From positions 1 through 64,000 of the forward strand of contig NZ_BONF01000047.1 of assembly GCF_016862575.1 (NCBI RefSeq): a stretch of DNA of 64,000 nt, read 5' to 3'. The first letter of the stretch is position 1, and each line of letters begins with the position of its first letter. Under the pieces are notes generated by a model. It did not search any database, was not told the DNA's origin, and saw nothing but the letters and a program-made list of their open reading frames with translations. Positions 49,409-59,487 of the stretch are shown here, piece by piece. This DNA is from Catellatospora bangladeshensis. GTDB taxonomy: Bacteria > Actinomycetota > Actinomycetes > Mycobacteriales > Micromonosporaceae. The translations under genes were made by a program, and so were the position numbers.

Positions 49409-49879
49409 TTGTCAGGCATGCCATTGCACGACCTGCGCCGCGTGCCCGACGAGACGCTGTTCGTCCGGCTCACCGTGCTGCACCGGGAGTTCCCCGCCGA
49501 CTTCGACGCCGAGGACTACGACTACCGCCGTGCCATCTGGGAAGCGGCGACCAAGGCGCTGCAGGCCGAGATCCGCCGCCGCCGGGCCGCGCCGCCCGCC
49601 TGGTGGATCGCCGAGCACGGCGAACCCGCCGCGATCCGGCAGCGGCGCTTCGGCACGATCACGGTGTACCTGGTCGCCGGGGCGATGGCGGTGGTGGCCT
49701 CGGGCCTGCCCGCGCTGTCGGTGCTGCTCATGCTGACCGTCGCGGTCAGCGGTGCCGCCTGGCTGGTCCCCGAGGTGCTGCGCAATCACCGCCAGACCTT
49801 CCTGCGGCCCATCCCGCGCCCGCGCATCCCCCCCGCGGTGACCGCCCCTCCGTCCGGCCGCCGCCACCCGGCCACGTAG
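49409..49879 (+). CDS. Small two-helix membrane protein upstream of the CHAT gene
   Basis: This 156-residue protein has a soluble acidic and then basic N-terminus, two adjacent transmembrane helices (about 81-99 and 101-121) and a Pro/Arg-rich tail. No known domain. A TTG start is chosen because GGGAGG lies eight bases before it; an in-frame ATG at 49418 is possible but badly spaced. TAGCGT at 49369-49374 could be the -10 box. It is 106 nt upstream of the CHAT gene on the same strand. Confidence 0.65.
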   Translation: MSGMPLHDLRRVPDETLFVRLTVLHREFPADFDAEDYDYRRAIWEAATKALQAEIRRRRAAPPAWWIAEHGEPAAIRQRRFGTITVYLVAGAMAVVASGLPALSVLLMLTVAVSGAAWLVPEVLRNHRQTFLRPIPRPRIPPAVTAPPSGRRHPAT

Positions 49880-49985
49880 TCTGCACAATGTGGACGGACG
49901 GTCTGCCGACACTCCTCATGCGAGGGAACAGGCCAGTTCGGGCGCGCGGTAGCGTCAGCGCCACGGGGCCGTTCGAGGAGGTTGT

Positions 49986-52772
49986 GTGGGCATCGGCGGT
50001 GCCGATCCGGTGGGCGAGATCGCCCGCATCGTCGCGGACCTGCACGTACGCGACCTGGTGCAGGCGTACGACGTCGACTACGACGTGCCCTTCCGGCACG
50101 GCCTGGCCGGCGGCGTGCTCCAGCTGAAGCAGGCGTTCCGGCCGGTGCCCGGCGCGGGCGCGGGCCGCCTGGCACGCCGCGTCGGCGCCTACTGGTGCGA
50201 CATCGTGCGCGCCGACGTCGAGCTGGACCTCCAGCAGGGCCTGGCCCTGGTCGACGCGTCGCGCGCGGACGCCGCCCGGCTCACCGAGCTGCTCGATCCC
50301 TCCGATGAGGACCTGTTCCCGGCGTACGCGGCGGCCCGCTGGCACGACGGCGCGGGCCGGGTGCTCTACCGCAGCGGCAGCCACGCCCGGGGGCGTATGC
50401 ACTTCACCACCGGCCTGGAGGTCGCCGAGCGGCACGGCCTGTGGTGGTGCCTGCCCGACCAGCGCTCCAACGTGCTGCGGGCGCGGCTGGAGGAGGCCCG
50501 CCAGGCCGCGCCGGAGGTGATGGCCCGGCGCACCGCCGAGATCATCGCGGAGATGGCCGCCGAGGCGGCGCGCTGCGAGCAGGCCGCCGACGAGGCCGGG
50601 GTGCCGCGCGACGGGAACGCCCTGCCGCTGGACCGCCGCTGGCGGGAGTTCCTGCGCGGCTACTCCAACGTGCTGCACAACCTGTCGTTCGCGCTGCACC
50701 ACGACCGGCAGCCGGTGGCGGCGCTGGGCCGGTCGCTGCGCTCGCTGGCCGTCTCGGAGGCGCTGGGGGACAGCTACCGCCAGGCGCAGTCGCTGAACCA
50801 CCAGGCGATCGTCATCGGCGCGCACCACGTGGCGCTCCACCGTGATCCGGCGGAGGCGGACGCGCTCTACCGGCGCATCCTGCACCTGCGCTGGGCGCGC
50901 GGGCGCCGCATCGCCCAGCAGCAGCTGGCCCGGCGCAAGGGCGGCTTCGAGGGCGCCGCGGAGCTGGCCGGGCTCCTGGCCGAGCTGGCCGCCGAGTCGG
51001 CCGCCACCGGCGGCGCCGCCGGTCTGGACATCGACCTGCGCTCCTTCACGGTCTCCTGCTACCAGGGCGTCTCCGCCGGGCTGCCGGACACCGAGGAGGG
51101 CCGGGCGGCCCGCGCCGACGCGGCCGGGCGCGAGCTGGAGATGGCCCGTTCGGTGCGGCAGGTCATCGCGCTGCCTGCGTACAAGCGGGCGTACGGCGGC
51201 GCGGTGCGGCCGGTGTACTCGCGGCGTATCGCGCACCTGATCGAGCAGCCCGCCACCGGCTCCGGCGACCGTGACCGCTACGAGGAGATCCTGTCGCTGA
51301 CCGAGGAGTCGTCCGGCCGCGAGCTGCTCGACCTCATGTCGACGGCGGCCCTGCCGCAGCTGGACCTCGCTGAGGACGAGGAGGCCGCCCCGGCCGACGG
51401 GTCTGGGAGCGAGGCGGCCGGTGGCTCCGGCGAGGCGGCGCAGGCGGTGCCGTCTGCCAGGGGGCAGGCGGCGGCTGCGCAGCCGCGGGCCGAGCAGCCG
51501 GGAGGCGACGAGCCCGAGTCCGAGCAGCCCGAGAGCGACGGGACCCGCGGCGGGCGCCGCGACGGGCTGCGCCGCGCCGCCGACCCGGCGGAGGTGGAGG
51601 CCGACCGGGTCGCGCTGCTGGAGCGGGAGAGCCGGTTCGAGGAGCAGTTCCTGCGCCGCCCGCTGGAGGCCGCGCCGCACGACCCGGACGTGGCCCGCCG
51701 GGCGGAGATGTTCGTCATCAACCACCCCGGCACCGCACTGGTCCGCTACTTCACCTACGGGCAGGGCGCGGGCCTGACGCTCGGCGCCTTCGTGATCCGC
51801 GACGGGCTGCGCCGCCCGGTGGTGTGCGGGCCGTACGCGCCGGTGCAGGAGCTGATCAACGAGCTGGCCGCGCGGCGCTCGCCGCGCGAGGAGCACAGCC
51901 GCCGCATCTGGCGGCTGCTGGTGGAGCCGCTGCTGGGCGACCTCGGCGACCCGTCCACGCTGGACCACCTGGTGGTGGTGCCGACCGACGGCCTGTTCTC
52001 GCTGCCGCTGCACATCGCCTCCCCGGACGGGTACGCACCGGGTTCGGTGCCGCTGGGCGCGCAGGTGCCACTGTCGCTGTCGGTGAGCGTGACCGCGTTC
52101 GTCACCCGCGGCCGTTACCTGCTGCGCCGCCAGCGGGTCAGCGGCAGCGACGACCTGGCCGCGCTGGTCGTGGACGATCCAGTGATCAGCGGTAAGGAGC
52201 TGGTCGGCACCGGCTGGCCGGAGCACCGGATGCTGGTCGCCGGGCGGCTGCCCAAGGGGCTCGGCGTGGACGTGCGGCGGCACCGTGCCGACTGGGACGG
52301 CCTGGCCGCCGCGGTCGGCACCCGCCCGGAGTTCTTCGTGTACGCCGGGCACGGCCGCTATCTCGCCGAGTACGGCGAGCTGGGCCCGTTCCTGCAGATC
52401 GACGACCGGCACGGGCGGCCGGACCGGCTCACCCCGTTCGACGTGGCGCTGCGGCTGCGGCTGGCCGGCAACCGGCTGACCATCCTCGGCGCGTGCCTGG
52501 CCGGGCAGGGCGCGCAGACCACCGGCGGAGATGTGGTCGGGTTCGTGCGCTCGTTCATCGCCGCCGGTGCGGGCGCGCTGGCCCTGCCGCTGTGGCGGGT
52601 GCTGGACGGGGCGATGGCCGAGACCGGGCGCCACCTGCTGGCGAGCAGCCGGGCCGCCGTCACGCAGGACGGGGTGTTCGACGTGGTCCGGGCGCTGCAC
52701 GAGCACTACCGCGCGACGGTCGCCGAGGGGGACGGCTGGATCGAGTTCATGCCGCTGGCCCTGTACACCTGA
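49986..52772 (+). CDS. CHAT-domain caspase-like protease with TPR-like N-terminus
   Basis: This 928-residue protein has a helical, TPR-like N-terminal half (to about 460), a low-complexity acidic/Gly/Ala linker (about 461-525) and a C-terminal CHAT domain (about 600-928). The likely catalytic dyad is His789 in EFFVYAGHGRY and Cys837 in LTILGACLAGQG, as expected for CHAT proteases of the caspase clan. The domain also has LVVVPTDGLFSLPLHIA and a final AGAGALALPLW. CHAT proteins are often conflict or cell-death effectors activated through their helical repeats. AGGAGG lies four bases before the GTG. A TAGCGT box sits at 49950-49955. The small gene 73 nt downstream is a likely partner. Confidence 0.85.
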   Translation: MGIGGADPVGEIARIVADLHVRDLVQAYDVDYDVPFRHGLAGGVLQLKQAFRPVPGAGAGRLARRVGAYWCDIVRADVELDLQQGLALVDASRADAARLTELLDPSDEDLFPAYAAARWHDGAGRVLYRSGSHARGRMHFTTGLEVAERHGLWWCLPDQRSNVLRARLEEARQAAPEVMARRTAEIIAEMAAEAARCEQAADEAGVPRDGNALPLDRRWREFLRGYSNVLHNLSFALHHDRQPVAALGRSLRSLAVSEALGDSYRQAQSLNHQAIVIGAHHVALHRDPAEADALYRRILHLRWARGRRIAQQQLARRKGGFEGAAELAGLLAELAAESAATGGAAGLDIDLRSFTVSCYQGVSAGLPDTEEGRAARADAAGRELEMARSVRQVIALPAYKRAYGGAVRPVYSRRIAHLIEQPATGSGDRDRYEEILSLTEESSGRELLDLMSTAALPQLDLAEDEEAAPADGSGSEAAGGSGEAAQAVPSARGQAAAAQPRAEQPGGDEPESEQPESDGTRGGRRDGLRRAADPAEVEADRVALLERESRFEEQFLRRPLEAAPHDPDVARRAEMFVINHPGTALVRYFTYGQGAGLTLGAFVIRDGLRRPVVCGPYAPVQELINELAARRSPREEHSRRIWRLLVEPLLGDLGDPSTLDHLVVVPTDGLFSLPLHIASPDGYAPGSVPLGAQVPLSLSVSVTAFVTRGRYLLRRQRVSGSDDLAALVVDDPVISGKELVGTGWPEHRMLVAGRLPKGLGVDVRRHRADWDGLAAAVGTRPEFFVYAGHGRYLAEYGELGPFLQIDDRHGRPDRLTPFDVALRLRLAGNRLTILGACLAGQGAQTTGGDVVGFVRSFIAAGAGALALPLWRVLDGAMAETGRHLLASSRAAVTQDGVFDVVRALHEHYRATVAEGDGWIEFMPLALYT

Positions 52773-52845
52773 CAGACCCGCCGAGCACGGCGGGGCGGGG
52801 GCCGGCCGGGTTCGGCACGTACCGACTATCTGGAGTGGATCCCCT

Positions 52846-53301
52846 GTGAGCAGGATGGTTCTGGACGACCTGTCCGACGACGAGCTGGCGGAGCTGACGG
52901 CGCTGGCCGAGCAGCACGACGTGGAGCTGATGCGGGAGGGCGACCGGGGCGAGCCGGTCACCATCGCGATCCTGGTGGGCAGCGCGCTGGCGATCGGCGC
53001 GGTGATGCACGAGTTCGAGCGGCGCAAGGGCGGTCAGGTGATCGACCTGCGCCCGGACGCGCCGAAGCCGGCCTACCGCGACAAGGACCTGCAGTACGGC
53101 CTGGTCATGATCCGTTCGGCGGACGGCGTGGTCCGGGTGGAGGTGCACGAGCCCAAGGGCATGCTGGGGCAGGTCCTTGACGCGATCAACGGCATCGTGG
53201 GCACGCTGACCGGCCAGGAGCCGGACGGCCTGCTGCAGCAGCTGCAGAACGCCGTCGGCGACCGCGCCACGGTCACCCGGGATCCCCGCGACCAGCCCTG
53301 A
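52846..53301 (+). CDS. Small membrane-associated partner of the CHAT protease
   Basis: This 151-residue protein has an acidic helix (DLSDDELAELTALAEQ), one hydrophobic segment (about 38-55, VTIAILVGSALAIGAVMH), a basic turn and beta-type strands (about 83-102, LQYGLVMIRSADGVVRVEV). An amphipathic C-terminal helix follows (about 105-138). The layout of hydrophobic segment then beta strands resembles small constant components that accompany effector proteins in actinobacterial conflict systems, but I cannot assign a family. It lies directly downstream of the CHAT gene and could be its substrate, regulator or membrane anchor. GTG start with GGAGTGG upstream. Confidence 0.65.
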   Translation: MSRMVLDDLSDDELAELTALAEQHDVELMREGDRGEPVTIAILVGSALAIGAVMHEFERRKGGQVIDLRPDAPKPAYRDKDLQYGLVMIRSADGVVRVEVHEPKGMLGQVLDAINGIVGTLTGQEPDGLLQQLQNAVGDRATVTRDPRDQP

Positions 53302-53313
53302 GCTTTCCGGCCG

Positions 53314-53354
53314 TGACCGAAGCTCTCGCCACCCTGTGCCGGGAGCTTCGGTCA
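53314..53354. terminator. Bidirectional hairpin closing the CHAT locus
   Basis: Perfect 12-bp arms (53314-53325 and 53343-53354) sit between the convergent small genes. The right arm overlaps the stop codon of the minus-strand gene. Confidence 0.75.
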
Positions 53355-53624
53355 GGCCAGCGCGTTGCGGTTGGCGGGCCGGACCGGCAGGCGCCGCCAG
53401 TTGCGGCGCGTCGTGCGGCGGCGCAGCGGGACGACGACCGCCCGGCGGCGCAGCCCGGTCCGCAGCACCCGCACCTGGCGGCGTACGCCGCGGGCCAGCT
53501 CCCGCCCGGTGCGCAGCCGCCGCCCGGCGTCGGCCCGCAGCCGGTCGGCGCGGCGGCGCAGCACGAGCAGCACCACGTACGCGCCCGCCAGCACGCCGCC
53601 GAGCACGACCTCCGACGCCGCCAT
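53352..53624 (-). CDS. Small Arg-rich single-pass membrane protein
   Basis: This 90-residue protein has one transmembrane helix (about 5-22) followed by a tail in which roughly a third of the residues are arginine. No cysteine or known motif. GGGAGG precedes the ATG. It converges on the CHAT partner gene. The coding call rests on the ribosome site, the helix and the codon-position bias, so it is moderate. Confidence 0.5.
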   Translation of the reverse strand: MAASEVVLGGVLAGAYVVLLVLRRRADRLRADAGRRLRTGRELARGVRRQVRVLRTGLRRRAVVVPLRRRTTRRNWRRLPVRPANRNALA

Positions 53625-56791: not shown

Positions 56792-57871
56792 GTGAAAAAG
56801 TCGGATCGGGTGGTCGCGGTCGCCGCGACGCTGCTCGCCGCGACCCTGACCGTGCCGCTGGGCGGCGCCGCGTCCTGGGGCGCTCGCGCGGCCGGGGAAC
56901 AGGTCTACGCGTCGGCGGGCACGTACACCTTCGACATGCCGGGCGGCACGGCGGTGACGCTAGAGCTGTGGGGCGCGGGCGGCGGCGGGGGCGGCGGCTA
57001 CGCGGGCGGCGCGGGCGGCGGCGGTGGGGGCGGCGGCAAGTCGCTGTTCACCCGGGGCGGTGGCGGCGGCGCCGGGGGCAGTTCCGGCGGCGGCGGGGCG
57101 GGCGGCGGCTCGGGCGGCGCGGGCCAGTACGTGCGCTGCGAGCTGCCCGCCGACCTGCCCGCGACGCGGCTGTCCATCGTGGTCGGCCGGGGCGGCAGCG
57201 GCGGCCGGGGCGCGGCGGGCGCGACCGGCGGAGCCCCGAGCGCACCGGGCGGCAACGGCAATGCGGGCCAGACCGCCGAGCCGGGCGCCGAGGGCGGCGA
57301 CGGCGCCCTCACCGAGGTGAACGTGCTGCTCAACGGCGTACCGCTGCTGCTCGCCCAGGCCGCGGGCGGCAGCGGGGGACAGGGCGGCCGCAAGTTCTCC
57401 AACGGCGGACCGGGTGGCATGGACGCCACCGGCAGCCGTCCCGGCACCTCCCGCCCCGGCGGCCTGGGCAGCACCGCGCCCGGCGACGGCGGCGCGGGCG
57501 GCACGATGACCGTGGCGACGGCGAGCCTGTGCACCGCCGAGGACGGCTCGGCGGGCGAGCCCGGCAAGGCGGGCACCACCGGCGCGGCGGGCGGCTCGGG
57601 CGCGGACGGCGCGTCCAGCGGCGACGGCGGCGCGGGCGGCACCGGCGCGACCGTGACCGGCTCCGGCGGCGCGGGCGGGCCTGCCCCCGACGCCGAGCAC
57701 GGCGCGGGCGGTGCGGGCGGCTCCGGTGGCGCGGGCGGCCGGGGCGGCGACGGCGGCCGCGGCGCCTACCACCGCAGCCTCGCAGCCGAGGGCGGCTCCG
57801 CCGGCGGCAGCTCCCGCCCCGGCGCCACCGGCACCCCCGGCACCGACGGCTACGCCCGCCTCACCTGGTAA
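56792..57871 (+). CDS. Secreted glycine-rich protein
   Basis: This 359-residue protein has a signal peptide (about 1-34), a beta-type opening (YTFDMPGGTAVTLELWGAGG) and then long Gly/Ala-rich tracts. These are interrupted by short ordered segments containing two cysteines (YVRCELPADLP, TASLCTAEDG). The opening is typical of glycine-rich domains in secreted or fibre-like proteins. It is likely structural or a matrix component. AGGAAAGG precedes the GTG start. The final LTW codons and TAA abut a palindromic element. Confidence 0.8.
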   Translation: MKKSDRVVAVAATLLAATLTVPLGGAASWGARAAGEQVYASAGTYTFDMPGGTAVTLELWGAGGGGGGGYAGGAGGGGGGGGKSLFTRGGGGGAGGSSGGGGAGGGSGGAGQYVRCELPADLPATRLSIVVGRGGSGGRGAAGATGGAPSAPGGNGNAGQTAEPGAEGGDGALTEVNVLLNGVPLLLAQAAGGSGGQGGRKFSNGGPGGMDATGSRPGTSRPGGLGSTAPGDGGAGGTMTVATASLCTAEDGSAGEPGKAGTTGAAGGSGADGASSGDGGAGGTGATVTGSGGAGGPAPDAEHGAGGAGGSGGAGGRGGDGGRGAYHRSLAAEGGSAGGSSRPGATGTPGTDGYARLTW

Positions 57872-58896: not shown

Positions 58897-59487
58897 TCAC
58901 ACCGCGCGCAGGTGGCGGCGCGGGGTGGGGGTGCCGTCGGCGAGCGCGGCGGTGAGGTCGTCGCGGGCACGGGCGACCCGGGAACGGATGGTGCCGACCG
59001 GGCAGCCGACCACCTCGGCGGCCTCGGCGTAGGACAGCCCCAGCAGCTGGGTGGCCACGAACGCCTCGCGCCGGTCCGGGTCGAGCCCGCCGATCAGCTG
59101 GTCGAGCAGGATCTGCTCGTCGAACCGGGCCCCCGTTCCGGCCTGCGCGGCGTCGGCGACGCTCGCCCAGTCGGCGAGGTCGGCCGCGCGCGGGCGGCGC
59201 GACACCGAGCGCAGGTGGTCGACCACGGTGTGCCGGGCGATCGCGAGCAGCCAGGTGCGCGCCGAGGAGCGGCCCTCGAACGACGGCAGCGCCCGCATCG
59301 CCCGCAGGTAGGTGTCCTGGGCCAGGTCGTCGGCGTCGGCCGGGCCGGCCAGGTGCGCCACGAACCGGGTCACGTCCCGCTGGGTCGCCGCGACGAACGC
59401 CTCCGCGGCGCCGCGGTCGCCGCCCCGGGCAGCCAGGGCCAGCGCCGTGACGCGATCGTCGTCGCCGCCGTGGGAGCCGTAGGACAT
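58897..59487 (-). CDS. ECF RNA polymerase sigma factor
   Basis: This 196-residue sigma factor has region 2 (about 50-97: ADADDLAQDTYLRAMRALPSF, then ARTWLLAIARHTVVDHLR) and region 4 (about 145-180: LLGLSYAEAAEVVGCPVGTIRSRVARAR). It is divergent from a zinc-finger anti-sigma gene. A TACGCT box seven bases before the ATG suggests a leaderless vegetative promoter, so the sigma gene itself may not be strictly autoregulated, while the anti-sigma and ycnI genes carry ECF-type boxes. Confidence 0.92.
   Translation of the reverse strand: MSYGSHGGDDDRVTALALAARGGDRGAAEAFVAATQRDVTRFVAHLAGPADADDLAQDTYLRAMRALPSFEGRSSARTWLLAIARHTVVDHLRSVSRRPRAADLADWASVADAAQAGTGARFDEQILLDQLIGGLDPDRREAFVATQLLGLSYAEAAEVVGCPVGTIRSRVARARDDLTAALADGTPTPRRHLRAV

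Follow-up and report, generated by a model that had tools for sequence, protein, structure and literature searches.

In the window, by which we mean the whole 64,000-nucleotide stretch analyzed here, a gene for a predicted TPR-CHAT protease is followed by a gene for a small partner protein, and this two-gene cassette unites halves that are found apart in the other loci read. The best reading is that, in this genus, a regulator or sensor family whose usual companion is an M48-like peptidase came on one occasion to be linked with a CHAT protein of the CATRA type; the small protein is likely a control subunit that changed, in the course of evolution, between two kinds of protease. For bacterial CHAT and caspase-like systems, most of what is known concerns the enzymes, and usually not the switch that activates them.

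Extent of the cassette

The genome that holds the window comprises 8.8 Mb in 115 contigs. The CHAT gene (positions 49986-52772, forward strand) has a GTG start and encodes 928 amino acids according to the list of open reading frames. From its stop to the start of the partner gene (52846-53301, forward strand) there are 73 nt; the partner has 151 amino acids, with the frame taken from the same list and the start read in the sequence. A codon-position gene caller called both genes and the two small genes that flank them, one upstream (49409-49879, forward strand; 156 amino acids, with a hydrophobic segment and a hydropathy peak of 2.26) and one downstream (53352-53624, reverse strand; 90 amino acids, with a start that is hydrophobic by eye). 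The original prediction of a 151-residue partner with one hydrophobic segment, 73 nt after CHAT, is thus borne out by the open reading frames, the gene caller and the hydropathy of the segment (KD19 1.88).

Eleven genomes of the genus were searched with 9.7 kb of the window, and the partner was found in two, G000 and G051. Six genomes that keep the flanking order and lack the CHAT-partner pair were read, with G016, G118 and G133 left out at this site. In all six, the upstream 156-amino-acid gene (70-72% identity) stands beside a different gene, CHAT and partner are replaced by a gene of 324-330 amino acids on the opposite strand, which in the single genome scanned matches Pfam AAT/CBAH, and the place of the 90-amino-acid gene is taken by a short convergent gene. 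The 90-amino-acid protein has a BLAST match in one of the six (L112, 58%); the other five have a gene of 79-96 amino acids with a similar start in the same place, under the BLAST cut-off, and G125, G087, G109 and G071 are among the matches listed for the DNA of this gene region. At one site (L117) there is one extra short gene between the flanks. CHAT and partner are absent together from all six syntenic relatives, and their order is the same in both genomes in which they were read, with a spacing of 73 nt in the window and 71 nt in L029, the locus of G051.

As the flanks surround another gene in each of the six pair-less genomes, CHAT and partner form a cassette, and the true module consists of these two genes only, at 49986-53301. 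The two flanking small genes exist as described and belong to the genus backbone, not to the module in which the original prediction had placed them; the observation of a locus at 49409-53624 therefore stands, with a smaller module inside it. The idea of protease and small partner as a unit is supported, since they are present or absent together at the site and, outside the genus, a predicted peptidase gene adjoins the partner in 12 of the 15 loci.

Between the window and G051, CHAT differs by 22 nonsynonymous and 60 synonymous changes (dN/dS 0.13) and the partner by 10.5 and 13.5 (dN/dS 0.25); on these few substitutions, both genes look to be under purifying selection between the two related species. 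Both proteins have their closest named homologues in Catellatospora sp. NPDC049609 (partner 79-80%, CHAT 83-85%), from which the genus is taken to be Catellatospora-like.

A GC-rich hairpin at 53317-53351, between the convergent partner and 90-amino-acid genes, has a 12-bp outer stem and a folding energy of -24.7 kcal/mol (z -3.7), and is largely kept in G051. Its proposal as a bidirectional terminator is upheld as far as the hairpin itself is concerned; it has no T-run and was not among the hits of a simple terminator scan. It is a possible two-way terminator.

The CHAT protein and its relatives

The 928-residue protein, a predicted TPR-CHAT cysteine protease, matches Pfam CHAT (PF12770) over residues 637-879 with 59.6 bits (cut-off 24). 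Its layout comprises helical repeats (residues ~8-453), a low-confidence linker (~455-533) and the CHAT domain (~534-928); the helical repeats form a TPR-like superhelix at the N-terminal end, and the fold of the CHAT domain is caspase/separase-like. The His789/Cys837 dyad, reported as intact from the start, occurs in all but one of 40 rows in an alignment made up of the window, 34 of 56 CHAT homologue matches (alignment A5) and 5 loci. In the fortieth row (L044) the frame departs ahead of the dyad, and the CHAT domain there lies in two pieces.

The N-terminal 460 residues match 8 of 200 genomes of the family, four of which have long homologues outside the cassette. In the four loci L043-L046, CHAT is followed by a gene of 106-107 amino acids and then by a CATRA-N/CATRA-C gene over both cut-offs, and a divergent NUDIX gene lies upstream; Pfam recognizes CATASP in one of the four 106-107-amino-acid genes. 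In a fifth locus, carried by an Embleya plasmid, a NUDIX gene is annotated, and the CATRA position is occupied by a 244-amino-acid protein without Pfam match. CATRA is present in four and the partner in none of these five CHAT homologue loci outside the cassette. This count leaves aside L049 (G021), where the match of a 445-amino-acid protein is confined to residues 194-358, as well as L042, whose frame contains stops, L050 (E 1.8e-4) and L051 (E 1e-3).

The partner protein and its family

No model of Pfam, NCBIfam or PADLOC matches the partner above its cut-off. The partner has 28 homologues by sequence search and 289 by profile; Pfam domains are absent from the best 120 of the 289 profile matches, and a single sequence match (P0029) carries one (PF02441). 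Alignment A1 leaves out P0006, P0013 and P0029, and alignment A3 also P0014, P0016 and the partners of L020, L022, L023, L048, L118 and L119.

The AF2 monomer model is confident (pLDDT 87.8) and has an N-terminal ferredoxin-like domain (~residues 1-67) that contains the one hydrophobic segment, at residues 37-55. The segment is hydrophobic in all aligned members (KD19 at least 1.69 in 34 of 34), and the model resolves it into a strand (40-45) and a helix (47-61) within the globular domain. The membrane association that had been proposed for the partner is accordingly doubtful, and judged from the model it is probably not a membrane protein.

The strongest conserved stretch is the motif KGGQVIDLR at residues 61-69, which is modeled as well ordered. 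Residues 31-40 form an internal stretch of low confidence (mean pLDDT 61), within which G35-E36-P37 is conserved. Outside the CHAT-linked clade, 128 members, for a minority of which the neighborhood was read, have 38 conserved positions in common, and the window partner keeps 34 of these; the surface that these positions mark therefore likely serves beyond the active site of one protease.

The family is patchily distributed, with matches in 5 of 200, 3 of 397 and 1 of 394 genomes in three overlapping samples that each include G000, or in 4 of 199 (one of them G051), 2 of 396 and 0 of 393 without it; these surveys scored few candidates per genome.

Partner loci outside the genus

Profile and pattern searches yielded 15 partner loci outside the genus. 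Nine are in named genomes (Blastococcus, Geodermatophilus, Streptomyces, Paractinoplanes and five Nocardia), and the remaining six are in three genomes of the family, one of the order, and two plasmids (Gordonia pGKT2 and a Streptomyces plasmid); L047 (G383) equals L015 in contig size and genes and was counted once.

Directly downstream of the partner, 12 of the 15 loci encode a predicted zinc peptidase with an HExxH motif, with a 4-nt overlap of the two genes in L016, L017, L021 and L031. Ten of the 12 companions are the Paractinoplanes companion or its BLAST-detectable relatives; for those of L015 and L118 the assignment depends on the HExxH motif and on their scores for Pfam M48 (20.8 and 16.3, cut-off 20.3). 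The M48 cut-off is passed by four of the 12 (L015, L018, L019 and L020). As HExxH, WxxExxAD and GxHPPxxxR are invariant in all ten aligned companions (L118 and L119 are outside the alignment), we predict the companions to be M48-like zinc peptidases. In L022 the partner frame is broken and the companion is open. Three loci (L023, L030 and L048) have no peptidase beside the partner, and the partner frame of L023 is broken.

CHAT is found in none of the 15 loci, over 10-20 kb each. The original prediction took the partner to be dedicated to CHAT, and itself named partner homologues lying mostly away from CHAT genes as evidence to the contrary; this is what the loci contain, and the partner is not dedicated to CHAT. 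No zinc peptidase gene stands beside the CHAT-partner pair in L029, and in G051, a one-contig genome with the pair, the zinc companion has no match anywhere, which makes it unlikely that the partner of G051 works with a zinc peptidase encoded at a distance. The order of CHAT and partner is reversed relative to the partner/zinc-peptidase pairs.

In a quick tree of 77 of the 136 partner rows at hand, the six CHAT-linked partners group together in a single clade with an SH-aLRT support of 99 and a long stem (1.03), and the zinc-peptidase-linked partners are scattered over the rest of the tree. Within this clade the CHAT link was read directly in the window and L029 only; for P0003 and P0005 it would follow from the pairs P0003/P0031 and P0005/P0032 on contigs of the same size, and for P0002 and P0004 it is presumed solely from close kinship. 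Because long branches meet near the clade, its exact placement is unsure. A single switch from zinc peptidase to CHAT is the simplest reading, and only one genus shows the pairing with CHAT.

Possible roles of the partner

We tentatively favor, at somewhat below even probability, a partner that works as a regulatory or sensory subunit and gates the protease beside it, of whichever kind that is. The partner would bind the TPR superhelix or the CHAT domain and either hold the protease inactive or present its trigger. A cue sensed via the conserved surface KGGQVIDLR...YR...YG...DG...EP would free the protease, which would then cleave a further target, probably in a phage-defense or self-killing response; this step is modeled on CATRA, for which it is proposed, and on Craspase, for which it is shown in part. 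Regulation, cleavage and defense are thus functions that we infer for the cassette. As to its history, a CHAT of the CATRA lineage may have lost CATASP and CATRA and joined, once, a partner freed from a zinc peptidase. The surface is kept beside both protease types, and since the two protease folds are unrelated, a common function such as sensing, a shared target or self-assembly appears more likely than a fit to one active site. Counting against the regulator reading are the three of 15 loci without an adjoining peptidase, the M48 cut-off passed by only four of 12 companions, the CHAT pairing in one genus, the reversed gene order and the patchy distribution of the family in the surveys.

Much the same pattern of a constant protein with interchangeable proteases would be expected of a shared substrate, and the swap is explained almost as well if the partner is an effector released through cleavage by CHAT or the M48-like zinc peptidase. 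The CHAT protease of Craspase, once triggered, cuts the neighbor-encoded Csx30 (PMC9729208), and residues 31-40 of the partner offer a possible cut site, on which the conservation of G35-E36-P37 is neutral. We nevertheless consider this unlikely, as the strongest conserved stretch is well ordered in the model and two unrelated proteases would both have to cut one protein usefully. It is quite unlikely that the partner acts as an inhibitor or folding chaperone, in the manner of a protease propeptide. The small-residue-rich segment, its hydrophobicity in all aligned members and the two-gene layout recall EACC1 (PMC7159879), and by this analogy the partner could be a single-pass membrane anchor or signal for CHAT. 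This is improbable, as the AF2 model places the segment inside a globular domain, as a strand plus a helix of 15 residues, and the partner has no Pfam match to EACC1 at E up to 1 and an hhalign probability of 1.5%. That CHAT and partner are functionally unlinked insertions at one hotspot would fit a pairing restricted to one genus at a site occupied by another gene in relatives; we regard it as very improbable, as order and spacing are shared by both genomes, both genes look to be under purifying selection, they are absent together in all six relatives, and the partner family is peptidase-linked elsewhere.

Returning to the regulator reading, its wider form, in which the whole family is a protease-agnostic control subunit with a constant trigger and an interchangeable executioner (M48-like or TPR-CHAT), constituting a new conflict module, is possible and on balance doubtful. 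If true, a small family with a constant surface and a changing protease fold would separate trigger from executioner, and whether a single sensor governs two enzyme classes would become testable. The unnamed family (289 profile matches, no Pfam model) gains its first context here.

Comparison with known systems

Like EACC1 (PF19953), a proposed conflict system (PMC7159879), the cassette pairs a small alpha/beta protein bearing one small-residue-rich hydrophobic segment with a caspase-fold peptidase neighbor. Unlike EACC1, in which the small gene is 5' of the caspase gene, CHAT here precedes the partner. A single small-residue membrane helix of the EACC1 kind is compatible with the hydropathy of the partner, and the AF2 model disagrees. 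EACC1 has no match in the source genome in a search that matched 64 of 101 genomes; a second search also gave no match there and left its controls undetected too. Thirty EACC1 loci were looked for, the gene was called in 15, and 10 were aligned.

The TPR-CHAT fold is shared with Csx29 of Craspase (type III-E CRISPR). In contrast to Csx29, to which identity is 12%, the neighbors of the cassette, by gene list, form no type III-E CRISPR locus. At 5.6 kb from the cassette there is a gene for an ordinary ECF sigma factor. The usual companion of the partner family resembles M48/M78-like zinc peptidases in its HExxH, ExxAD and HPPxxxR motifs, and the CHAT cassette differs from the partner/zinc-peptidase pairs in having no zinc peptidase.

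CATRA ternary systems, proposed as conflict systems (PMC8195603), comprise CHAT or caspase, CATASP and CATRA (PF20269, PF20270, PF20271). CATRA has no Pfam match in the four genes scanned at the window locus, and tblastn with a CATRA protein gave no match in the syntenic L029 (19.5 kb). CATASP has no match beside the cassette; this miss says little, as Pfam recognizes CATASP in only one of four CATRA loci. The partner has a family of its own, distinct from the short helical gene at the CATASP position. The window CHAT is 41-44% identical to the CHAT of four CATRA loci, near full length in three and over residues 12-753 in the frame-broken L044. As in CATRA systems, then, the cassette carries a CHAT of this kind, and unlike in them, an unrelated 151-amino-acid partner stands where CATASP and CATRA would be.

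Six relatives of the same genus retain the flanking genes and lack the cassette, that is, the TPR-CHAT gene and the gene for its 151-aa partner. In these, the site is occupied by a gene for a protein of 324-330 aa (L112:3240-4220, and the corresponding place in L113-L117), which has a lipoprotein-like start and, in the single copy that was scanned, an AAT/CBAH match (Ntn-hydrolase-type). Elsewhere in the window, the ECF sigma factor gene on the minus strand (58897-59487), 5.6 kb from the cassette, shows no sign of being part of it. The product of a Gly-rich ORF of 359 aa (56792-57871), with an N-terminal hydrophobic stretch, is possibly a secreted repetitive protein.

The genome that contains the window has 13 CHAT matches, two of them near each other on contig C27 (G000:C27:58999-63881). 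At a CATRA locus of the same genus (L044:6099-8832, genome G118), which carries no partner gene, the CHAT domain of the CHAT gene is split across two frames; either this gene is disrupted or its sequence contains an error.

In the loci read outside the genus, the partner family is usually found directly upstream of a gene for a predicted M48-like zinc peptidase with an HExxH motif. In three Nocardia loci this companion is a tandem duplicate in a single chain of 803 aa (L018:10442-12853, L019:10472-12883 and L020:7078-9489); in its second copy HExxH is replaced by GRAYAH, and this copy is possibly a pseudo-protease half. The partner copy in a Nocardia asiatica record (L023:10001-10296) is frame-broken and has no adjoining peptidase gene, whereas P0097, a protein named Nocardia asiatica, is full length (167 aa). 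On the Gordonia plasmid pGKT2 (L118:1-6873), a DUF499 gene and a gene for a 1054-aa protein with a weak restriction-endonuclease-like match (E 0.1) precede the partner and HExxH genes, and the group may represent a plasmid-borne defence cluster.
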